Shown here: positions 4,347 to 52,572 of the stretch, in pieces
How the letters are laid out: every line of letters begins with the position of its first letter
How positions within the stretch are numbered: the stretch's first letter is position 1
Origin: Pontibacillus sp. HMF3514
Lineage (GTDB): Bacteria; Bacillota; Bacilli; Bacillales; BH030062
Assembly (NCBI RefSeq): GCF_009858175.1
Contig: NZ_CP047393.1
Location: 3,162,001 to 3,226,000, forward strand
Length of the DNA: 64,000 bases
Reading direction: 5' to 3'
The notes under the pieces: model-generated
Seen by the model: only the letters and a program-made list of their open reading frames with translations
Database searches by the model: none
Told to the model about the DNA's origin: nothing
Translations under genes and position numbers: made by a program

Positions 4347-5438
4347 GTGAATGAGGAATTCTATAAAAAAGCTGAAGCGTTTATTCAACAGTGTTACTCC
4401 GAGTTAGGAAAAGCTGAAGATGAAAAGAAGCAACGCTTACTACAGATACAAGATGAAATTGAAAAACATAACCATTATGAACATACATTTGAAGAATTAG
4501 AATATGGAGCAAAAGTAGCTTGGCGCAATAGCAACCGATGTATTGGTCGCCTGTTCTGGGATTCATTAAAAGTTTTTGACTACCGTCATTTAGACCATGC
4601 TGAAGATATAAAAGATGCTTTAGTTCACCACTTGGACTATGCAACGAATGGCGGTAAAATTCGTTCTACAATCTCCATTTTCAAACCAAAAACAAATGAA
4701 GAAACACCTGTCCGTATATGGAACCATCAACTCCTTCGATATGCAGGATATGTAGAGGATGGTGGCGTAATAGGCGATCCTGCCTCGGTAGAATTCACTA
4801 AAAAATGTAAAGAACTGGGTTGGCAAGGAGAAGGAACATCTTTTGATATTCTCCCTTGGGTCATTCAAGTACATGAACAAGAACCCAAATTATTTGAAGT
4901 ACCAAAAGATCATATTTTAGAAGTCCCTTTAAGACATCCAGAATATGATTGGTTTCAAGAACTGCGCCTTAAATGGTATGGCGTCCCAATTATTTCAGAT
5001 ATGAAACTAGAAGTGGGAGGCATTGAATATGTAGCCGCTCCTTTTAATGGATGGTACATGGAAACGGAGATCGGTGCTCGAAACTTAGCCGATGAGTTCC
5101 GGTACAACATGCTACCAACAGTAGGTGAATACCTCGGCTATAATGTGAGGCGCAATGCAACTCTATGGAAAGATCGTGCTTTGATTGAGTTGAATACAGC
5201 TGTACTCCATTCATTTAAAGAGGATGGGGTAAGTATAGTAGATCATCATTCCGCTGCCCAACAGTTTCATTTGTTTGAACAAAAAGAAAGTGCTTGCGGG
5301 CGTGAAGTAACAGGGGACTGGACATGGCTGATTCCTCCTATTTCCCCTGCTTCAACTCATATTTTCCATAGTTCCTATGATGATACCATGCATTCTCCCA
5401 ATTACTTTTATCAAGACAAGCCATATGAAGAATCATAA
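4347..5438 (+). CDS. nos: Nitric oxide synthase oxygenase domain protein
   Basis: Bacterial NO synthase: oxidises L-arginine via N-hydroxyarginine to citrulline and NO, using heme and tetrahydrofolate/biopterin, with electrons from separate reductases. At 363 aa it is the oxygenase domain only, as usual in Bacilli. The heme thiolate Cys65 lies in [13 protein letters not shown]; the substrate-site segment [19 protein letters not shown] and the C-terminal pterin-side WTWLIPP are present. The start is GTG (4347), from GGAGG spacing. A single-gene unit; no reductase nearby. In Bacillus and Staphylococcus, NO from this enzyme protects against oxidative stress and antibiotics; that role here is inference. 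Confidence 0.95.
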
Positions 5439-8938: not shown

Positions 8939-9427
8939 TCAAACTTTTCTTGTATGTATAATTCTCTCAAACATAACCATGTCTATTGCTCTTATATCAT
9001 TTTCCCAAATGGGCTCAGGGTACTTCAGAAAGAAATCTTTCTTAATCTCTGCTATTCGAAACCCAGCTTTTTGATAAAATGCTAAGTTCGCAATACTAGA
9101 GTTCGCAGTCCCAACGATCATTTTATATACCCCTTGATCACGATAAAGCGAACAAGCCTCTTCTATTACGGACTTTCCCAATCCTTGCCCTCGATAGATG
9201 TGGTCGATTGCAATGTTTTTAAGCTCAACTATTTGGTCAGAGTGAAAGGTAAAAATAGCAACTCCTACAAGCACCTCACCAGTATATATAGCAAACATAT
9301 CCCCTTCATTTATGTACTCTGATACGACTATTTCTGATTCATCCGCAAGAAGTAAATAATTCATAAAATTGCGGCGATGGTCCCCTTGTATGAATGTTAA
9401 TTGAACCTGTTTGTTTACTTGTTTCAT
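8939..9427 (-). CDS. GNAT-family N-acetyltransferase, 162 aa
   Basis: A single GNAT domain with the CoA-binding loop IDHIYRGQGLGKSVIEEA and the downstream NSSIANLAFYQKAGFRIAEI. The start is put at ATG 9427 (MKQVNKQ...) because GGAGGTG lies 6 bases before it; an ATG at 9442 overlaps that ribosome-binding site. It precedes the T-box-controlled GNAT gene on the same strand. The T-box leader between them begins close to its stop. Substrate unknown. Confidence 0.85.
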   Translation of the reverse strand: MKQVNKQVQLTFIQGDHRRNFMNYLLLADESEIVVSEYINEGDMFAIYTGEVLVGVAIFTFHSDQIVELKNIAIDHIYRGQGLGKSVIEEACSLYRDQGVYKMIVGTANSSIANLAFYQKAGFRIAEIKKDFFLKYPEPIWENDIRAIDMVMFERIIHTRKV

Positions 9428-26763: not shown

Positions 26764-27513
26764 TTATTCCACTGACCAGTCCAAGGATTCTAAGAAGTTG
26801 AAAATATCTTCATGTAATTGTTCACGTTCTTTATCTAACGTGATAACATGTCCTGATTCTTTGTACCATTTGATTTCTTTTTGATCAGCTTCAACATTTT
26901 CATAAATATAATTCGCGCTTTCTGTATTAATCATTTCATCGTTTTCTGCTTGGACTACAAATGTTGGCGCATAGATCATATCAATGTTGTCATGTACGTC
27001 CTTAATCAACTTACCAAGTTCCTCAAAGGTTTTAGAAGGTGTTTCTAATAGTGTGTCAAGTTCTTCTTGGATTGTATCTTCAGATTTTTTCTCAAGCTGC
27101 TTGTATTCCTTTGCGAATTGCTTGAACCCTTTTTTTAGCTCTTCTTCATTGTCAAAAAACATCGGAGAGCACATTGGTGTTACACCTTTAATGGGTTCGC
27201 TATAAGCAAGCTTTAACCCGAGAACACCTCCTAGAGAGAGACCAGCTACAGCAATTTCTTCATAGCCTTTATCCTTTAAATGTTGCAATGCATTCTGAAC
27301 ATCTTTCCACCAGTCAGCTGGTGTGTATTTTAAAATTTCTTCTGCTGGTTGCCCATGTCCGCTCAAAATGGGAGCATGTGAAGTATAGCCTTTCTTTTCT
27401 AAATAACGGCCTAACATTCGAACATCTGCTGAATGGCCAGTAAAACCATGTAATAATAATACCGCACGATTTCCTGCTTCAAACGTAAATGGTTGTGGTT
27501 GTTTTATTTTCAT
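26764..27513 (-). CDS. est: Carboxylesterase (Est/YvaK type)
   Basis: 249 aa alpha/beta hydrolase. The oxyanion/N-terminal motif [13 protein letters not shown], the nucleophile elbow AGLSLGG (Ser about 94), the acid QAENDEMI (Asp about 193) and the late His in ESGHVITLD form the triad. This matches the monoglyceride lipase/carboxylesterase of the secG-est-rnr cluster of Bacilli. Cytoplasmic, with no signal peptide. AAAGGAG precedes ATG. The natural substrate in this cluster is not established. Confidence 0.93.
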
Positions 27514-27716
27514 CTTTCTACATCTCCTTTTATCTTCGCTGCAAATTCTATATATATGGTTAGTTTCGCCTGAACCATGGATTCATGTAAGCCTAATTAA
27601 TTACCTATTGAGGAATATGGTTCCATCCTCTAAGAACGTATCCATATTACCATGAAAAAGTGGGAAAGCATAAGGAGAAGGTATTTAGGTAGGGGAGTTT
27701 TGGGGGAGTCAGCACT

Positions 27717-27856
27717 TATTCGGGCGATCGTGTCCTGGTTTCAGGCGGTCAGGAAGCATGTTCAGGCGATTATTGTGGGTTTTTAGGCGATCTCACCACG
27801 TTTCCGGGCTATCCTAGGACATTTTCAGGCGATTTCCCCCTATTTCCTGGCGAACC
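27717..27856. repeat. Array of seven degenerate 21-bp units (TTTCAGGCGAT-type)
   Basis: The GGCG (one GGCT) core starts at 27723, 27744, 27765, 27786, 27807, 27828 and 27849: six consecutive spacings of exactly 21. Around the core the consensus is TTTCaGGCGAT; the other half of each unit is variable. It lies between the secG terminator and the est start region. 27514-27716 shows no gene. Confidence 0.85.
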
Positions 27857-27859
27857 ATT

Positions 27860-27892
27860 AAAAAAAGCAACGAGTATAAACTCGTTGCTTAG
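27860..27892 (-). terminator. Terminator of secG
   Basis: AAGCAACGAGT-ATAA-ACTCGTTGCTT, an 11-bp stem followed on the minus strand by seven T, touching the secG stop. Confidence 0.85.
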
Positions 27893-28122
27893 CCTACAAC
27901 ATAACCAAGTAAGAATGTTAAAACAAAGAATAAAACAGCAGTCACGATGGTTGCTTTATGCATAACCGCATCAATTCCGCGTGCTTTTTGTTTACCAAAT
28001 AGTTGCTCAGCTCCACCTGAAATCGCTCCAGATAGACCTGCACTTTTACCAGATTGAAGAAGTACTAATGTAATCATTGCTATTGCATCTATTACAAGTA
28101 ATGTAACGACAACTCCGTACAT
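27889..28122 (-). CDS. secG: Protein translocase subunit SecG
   Basis: Small third subunit of the SecYEG channel. 77 aa with two transmembrane helices: [20 protein letters not shown] and [17 protein letters not shown]. The conserved [23 protein letters not shown] loop lies between them. Start at ATG 28122 (MYGVVV), 8 bases after AGGAGG; an in-frame GTG at 28131 overlaps that site. It heads the secG-est-rnr-smpB-ssrA strand block. Confidence 0.96.
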
Positions 28123-28252
28123 GTGATCCACCTCCTATAAGACGTGCAAATACCTACAGATAAATTTAGCATAAAACAAGCATTTGGGCAACAACATCTT
28201 CCATGCGAATTTTTTCAAAATTATTTTATTTTGCATATTAGTTGAACCTTTA

Positions 28253-52220: not shown

Positions 52221-52572
52221 TTTCAGGCGATCTTACACCATTTATGGGCGCTCCAGTACCAAATGCGGGCGGGTCGAACTCATTTGCGGGCGCTCCGGCA
52301 CCATATGCGAGCGGATCCAATTCGTTTGCAGGCGCTACGGCATCAAATGCGGGCGGATCCAGCTCATTTGCGGGCGCTTCGTACCATGCGAGCGGATACA
52401 ACTCGTTTGCGAGCGCTCCGGTACCATAAGCAGGCGGTTCCAACTCATTTGCAGGCGCTACGGTACCCAATGCGGGCGGATACAACTCATTTGCGAGCGC
52501 TCCGGCACAACATACGAGCGCCTCCACTTCATTTGCGAGCGTCCCGACATCAAATGCGGGCAGACACAGTTC
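52221..52572. repeat. Array of about seventeen 21-bp units in an alternating 42-bp pattern
   Basis: Two unit types alternate: A, TTTGCGGGCGCTCCGGCACC+A, and B, AATGCGGGCGGATCCAACTC+A. The GGCG core falls at 52226, 52247, 52268, 52289 and on at 21-base steps; two neighbouring units (52367-52405) are 20 and 19 long. Lies between the eno terminator and the upstream end of the DMT gene. The segment 52110-52220 shows no gene. Confidence 0.9.

Follow-up and report, generated by a model that had tools for sequence, protein, structure and literature searches.

The window, a stretch of 64,000 nucleotides from the chromosome of a salt-loving Pontibacillus, contains secG (80 aa; 27889..28131, - strand), an open reading frame identified from the sequence. 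The secG intrinsic terminator, a hairpin followed by a T run (27865..27890, -), abuts an array of seven 21-bp units with the core TTCRGGC(G/T) (27717..27860, +), which we characterized by sequence inspection, unit profile and simulation. secG lies upstream of the array in the transcription sense, and a carboxylesterase gene (26764..27513, -) lies downstream, with its start ~200 bp off. Between the array and the esterase a single core copy stands in inverted orientation (27565..27577, -; GGTTCAGGCGAAA as read on that strand), and it is identical in P. marinus. The preliminary description had placed the array just behind a terminator, and the secG hairpin does directly precede it in the transcription sense. 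This placement is a general tendency across arrays of this kind, which are mostly found ~25-155 bp from a gene 3' end, farther from the start of the next gene and clear of the promoter side.

The seven GGC(G/T) cores of the secG array start at 27723, 27744, 27765, 27786, 27807, 27828 and 27849, so that the six exact 21-bp spacings reported earlier are confirmed in the window. Counted from the first T of the longer core, the units start at 27719, 27740, 27761, 27782, 27803, 27824 and 27845 (+). An example unit consists of the core TTCGGGCGATCG (27719..27730, +) followed by ~9 bases of unconstrained spacer, as judged from the unit profile and the orthologue comparison. A possible eighth unit upstream at 27703 is doubtful. 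The earlier view that the units are diverged in everything except their spacing did not hold, since TTCAGG- and a T two bases after the core are common to most units. When the window was simulated 200 times with a first-order Markov model and searched at any period from 10 to 60, the longest equally spaced GGCK chain had two (166 times) or three (34 times) members, compared with seven in the secG array. Chance origin is thus rejected, as windows simulated with matching dinucleotide content contained no chain above three units. Tandem Repeats Finder did not report the secG array because its units are too diverged. A second array of the same class and orientation lies near eno (52226..52561, +), with a first unit TTCAGGCGAT, then (A/T)TTGCGGGCG. 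It has a mixed core and higher-order repeats of 42 and 123 bp, and the earlier reading of its first unit as TTTCAGGCGAT, with later units differing, is correct.

Whole-genome pattern searches and inspection of fetched stretches revealed ~20 intergenic arrays with the core TTCRGGCG in this genome; the other genome-wide figures rest on targeted and sampled stretches of the chromosome. Across this family the core TTCRGGCGVT is followed by ~10 variable bases, and the pooled profile of 109 units with a 21-bp step reads T-T-C-(A/G)-G-G-C-G-(A/C/G)-T-(C/T), then ~9 near-informationless positions. The step is 21 bp in 109 cases, 20 bp in 20 and 22 bp in one, and the 20-bp steps beside those of 21 bp fit the helical pitch but not codons. 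Homologous arrays with irregular spacing, which the preliminary description had named as evidence against its proposal, were looked for among neighbouring cores within 70 bp of each other, with the distance left unconstrained. In the sampled genome, 100/103 such neighbours are in phase (20-22 bp or multiples), so this objection fails. The sister species has 59/60 in phase, and five other genera have 18/18, 18/18, 40/42, 89/90 and 80/94. An exact-period scan for chains of at least four identical 5-mers at periods 13-63, covering 464 kb at even intervals plus the window, found three arrays at period 21, three at 42, two at 63 (three times 21) and none or one at any other period.

Other repeats accompany this family. 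A second, smaller core set, TWTGAGCG, with 20/21-bp steps occurs at 478130, 1097430, 1098933, 3060378, 3396867 and 3540571 of the same genome (G000), sometimes beside an array of TTCAGGCG, and a sister species (G007, L264 17509-17615) carries a TWTGAGCG array with constant 20-bp steps. At 2708992-2709390 (L189) there are 19 copies of near-identical 21-bp units (GAGCGATTCCGTCRCYTACCC). This array approximates the reverse complement of the one at 3647381 (- strand there), indicating that members of one family are scattered over this genome. Dispersed repeats of 51/52 bp, GCTTACGGACATTTGTTCCGCTATTTCACCTTAAAATGG... among them, are found at 505520, 2112598, 2918585 (L178, L186, L190) and 3111172 (L191), and these match the published class of 52-nt repeats.

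The closest named genome is P. marinus, with 98% protein identity in the neighbouring esterase, and it has an orthologous array at the secG locus with the 21-bp steps kept. At the same locus the array is absent from P. litoralis, and P. yanchengensis has none of this type. Farther afield, we scanned the surroundings of secG in 80 named relatives, picked without regard to repeats, and in these 536 kb found four arrays at period 21 and single cases at 39, 42 and 63. The period-21 architecture thus recurs in related genera with other cores, including CGGACA in Halobacillus locisalis, TTTGAGCACTAA in Aquisalibacillus elongatus and TCCCGTGAA in Gracilibacillus massiliensis. Where other genera have GGCG-based cores, the flanks are their own, and the cores are species-specific: TTCRGGCG here and TCGGGCGA, ATCGGCG, GGCG(T/C)GAA, GGCG(C/G)ATAA and others elsewhere. 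Of 105 sampled genera, 41 contain one or more four-unit GGCG matches, some of these being coding or near-identical repeats. A plasmid search with the secG array gave no match.

Several of these genomes show further variations. In Gracilibacillus massiliensis (L141 2191-2280), the core of a phased array flips its orientation midway (TTCACGGGAA / TTCCCGTGAA). In G012, arrays with a 22-bp period (TGTCGATTNTCTACC) adjoin 20/21-bp arrays (L237 9328-9444, L239, L240, L241). G025 carries a ~45 bp two-unit segment, GGCGTGAAAAGCCGGGGATATGGCGCGAAGGAACAGTCATCTGGCG, at more than 10 loci (e.g. C9:70120, C11:38519, C26:89539), as if arrays had been copied between places. In G002 (L168 ~5260-5309 and 9190-9242), a ~50 bp near-palindromic multicopy repeat, probably a mobile element end or MITE, edges a several-kb insertion at an array border.

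Comparison between close species separates the constrained from the free parts of the unit. We aligned seven arrays to a sister genome (G002 or P. marinus) and used the six gap-free ones for the counts; array 1099011 was left out at just below 0.6 ungapped identity, its steps agreeing in both genomes except for unit gain or loss. In the six arrays, divergence is 27/336 (8.0%) in the core versus 152/502 (30.3%) in the spacer (Fisher p ~8e-16). The core set was collected by core matching in one genome only, which should not bias its divergence to the other genome. In neighbouring genes, 2102/7271 four-fold synonymous positions differ (28.9%), close to the value for the spacer, which therefore evolves as neutral sequence. 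When indels were weighed against substitutions, as had been proposed, out-of-phase indels numbered 0 in the gap-free arrays, which carry 179 substitutions, versus 22 in the flanks, which carry 169, and array length differences between sister genomes are mostly whole units. Core and spacing are both constrained while the spacer is free. The preliminary suggestion that spacing matters more than sequence is therefore half right: the spacing is conserved, but so, strongly, is the 8-10 bp core. The comparison shows the signature of purifying selection on a short core and its helical phase, and this mode of evolution between species suggests that a protein may bind the motifs.

In this species the arrays are also oriented. 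The chromosome is 3.98 Mb long, begins at dnaA (base 1, + strand) and has a GC-skew change at 1.9-2.1 Mb, and 19 of ~20 arrays read 5'-to-3' toward oriC. The core strand is - in the right arm (10/10 arrays) and + in the left arm save for array 3240847, that is, the lagging strand. By units, 84 cores in arrays are on the lagging strand versus 3 on the leading strand (n=87). Single core copies in coding sequence, counted in sampled stretches, are six leading and six lagging, and the strand sign is reversed in two arrays that differ in sequence (3392970, 3647381). The complete genome G012 also begins at dnaA (base 1), and every one of its arrays is on the leading strand, as are 5/5 in G178; G025, G039 and G154 have mixed array orientation. 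The orientation in G039 splits by spacer composition, with purine-rich arrays leading and pyrimidine-rich arrays lagging, and strand-specific mutation bias on a neutral spacer could be the source of this split. A universal polarity with GGCG on one fixed strand is rejected by the opposite sign in G012 and G178 and the mixture in the other three; polarity is strong in some species and is no universal rule. Gene direction confounds this analysis because most neighbouring genes also follow replication. The arrays that separate the two, 771961, 1049693 and 3516189 here and one each in G154 and G178, all follow the replication strand; at the three in this genome the flanking genes are divergent or contrary, and the array orientation still matches the replichore. 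One G025 array (L281) has lagging-strand orientation and runs in the same direction as the genes beside it, and some room is left for gene direction as the source of the polarity.

Arrays of similar dimensions have been described. In 2021 Subirana and Messeguer reported, for many Bacillus species, tandem repeats that keep a fixed size of 20-21 or 52 nt while their sequence varies and is particular to each species (PMC8161180). Repeats of this class share a short signal (TCGCGG in B. weihaiensis) and are abundant in some species only; the authors call the class enigmatic and regard the length of the repeat as the most striking of its conserved features (PMC8161180). They noted that 20-21 nt corresponds to two helical turns and suggested proteins polymerising on DNA or small RNAs (PMC8161180). 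The arrays described here are likewise 20-21 nt, non-coding, of several families per genome and species-specific in sequence with a shared short signal, TTCRGGCG in most arrays. The published class is delimited by a length of 20-21 nt for 60% or more of the repeats and by four or more repeats within 800 nt (PMC8161180), and 6/6 steps of the secG array are 21 bp. Sizes other than 20-21 or 52 are absent or rare in our scan of periods 13-63, and 51/52-bp repeats are present. By every feature tested, the secG array belongs to the published 20-21-nt constant-size class, with the differences that Pontibacillus is not in that paper and that the units here are more diverged than those a score-based finder reports. 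Our analysis adds that core and spacer are calibrated against neutral sites, that indels are depleted and that the arrays of this species are strand-polar. The 2021 paper is without polarity relative to the origin, neutral calibration or indel depletion. An earlier paper on the 20-21-nt repeats by the same authors reportedly appeared in J. Bacteriol. in 2020 and may contain more.

Other known systems resemble the arrays in part. STAR elements of Staphylococcus aureus, another low-GC Firmicute, are likewise short, GC-rich direct repeats that lie between genes and have variable spacers, but the spacers of their 14-bp repeat, T(G/A/T)TGTTG(G/T)GGCCC(C/A), consist of recurring sequence 40 bp or longer, and there is no two-turn phase (PMC3532100); as core and spacing both differ, the secG array is not a STAR element. 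CRISPR arrays, which are accompanied by cas genes, share the tandem arrangement of a constant segment and a variable spacer. In contrast to their near-identical repeats of more than 20 bp and unrelated spacers, the constant part here is only 8-10 bp in a 21-bp unit, many loci are occupied, and orthologous spacers are related by point changes, so that in repeat structure the arrays do not fit CRISPR. Plasmid iterons and the centromere repeats of ParR and TubR are direct repeats about two helical turns apart that align proteins on one DNA face. These are confined to one or a few loci beside their own initiator or partition genes, whereas ~20 chromosomal arrays are found here, with no initiator- or partition-type neighbour genes seen beside them. 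KOPS, SRS and Chi are polar motifs with strand polarity relative to replication. Here, unlike in those systems, only clustered copies are polar and the sign differs between genera, and a genome-wide polar oligomer of that type is not supported.

In our interpretation, the array is probably a non-coding cluster of helically phased protein sites, occupied cooperatively on one DNA face by a lineage-specific DNA-binding protein. The conserved 8-10 bp core, the free spacer and a two-turn step that tolerates 20 as well as 21 bp favor such a protein. Each unit would supply one putative 8-10 bp site (TTCRGGCGVT), and consecutive sites, 20-21 bp or two helical turns apart, would all lie on the same side of the DNA. 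Most likely, a lineage-specific protein would then fill the row cooperatively, and its recognition sequence would drift along with the core from genus to genus. The role may be structural, either in the nucleoid or in association with replication, rather than in secG regulation. We infer the protein, its cooperative occupancy and the structural role from the sequence pattern. Two observations count against a binding-site reading: the arrays are recent, as the differences among Pontibacillus species at the secG locus indicate, and the units of some arrays (e.g. 1042285, 2338154, 2708992) are near-identical and look like fresh slippage products.

The same near-identical arrays, together with higher-order duplications of 41, 42 and 123 bp, could instead reflect a selfish or purely mechanistic minisatellite, in which slippage or strand-specific copying with a two-turn step generates units of no cellular role and the cores are needed for the copying itself. 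The spread of a ~45 bp segment over more than 10 contigs in another genus fits this idea, and a strand-specific process could place 84/87 core units on the lagging strand. Slippage alone is insufficient, however, to explain orthologous units that vary by point changes in the spacer with the core kept and unit number mostly stable, or a period of 21 that persists in old, diverged arrays, and we consider this explanation unlikely. The polarity could also mean that the phased clusters act as a polar signal in replication or segregation, recognized by a DNA translocase or a component of the fork much as KOPS, SRS, Chi or ter are. The near-uniform orientation toward oriC, with dnaA at base 1 and the skew change near 2.0 Mb, the three arrays that follow the replichore amid divergent or contrary genes, and the leading-strand arrays throughout the complete G012 genome would agree with such a signal. 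This is nevertheless improbable: the strand of the core changes from lagging here to leading in G012 and G178, with both orientations present in G025, G039 and G154; array 3240847 is reversed; and single copies outside arrays (6:6 in coding sequence) are unbiased, unlike those of KOPS or Chi.

Transcription of the array as a small RNA or RNA sponge, in line with the 2021 paper (PMC8161180), has a precedent in the 52-nt repeats of B. coagulans, which are transcribed (PMC8625621). The secG array, however, is on the far side of the secG terminator and shows no excess of promoters, a period of two helical turns has no obvious RNA meaning, neither strand folds more stably than its shuffles (z +1.4, +1.2) and Rfam gave no family at cut-off. 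A structured non-coding RNA is rejected on the last two grounds, and an RNA role of any kind is very improbable. A protein with seven-residue repeats might be proposed as well, since 21 is divisible by 3 and one of the forward frames stays open across the secG array. This can hardly be upheld, as no ORF of at least 70 aa covers the array, five of six frames contain stops, the spacer is neutral in rate at all positions and the 20-bp steps of sister arrays break any reading frame, which excludes a shared one; a coding repeat is accordingly rejected.

With a close species pair serving as the neutral yardstick, a conserved core and phase beside a free spacer form the pattern expected of a phased protein-binding array. 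One may speculate, with low expectation, that many Bacillales carry a fast-drifting pair consisting of a DNA-binding protein and its own two-turn-phased arrays across the genome, whose orientation with respect to replication is selected in at least some species, giving oriented nucleoprotein stretches along the chromosome arms. The motif TTCRGGCGVT, repeated every 21 bp, provides a concrete bait for a search for the protein. If the polarity is upheld in more complete genomes, it would tie the arrays to replication or segregation.
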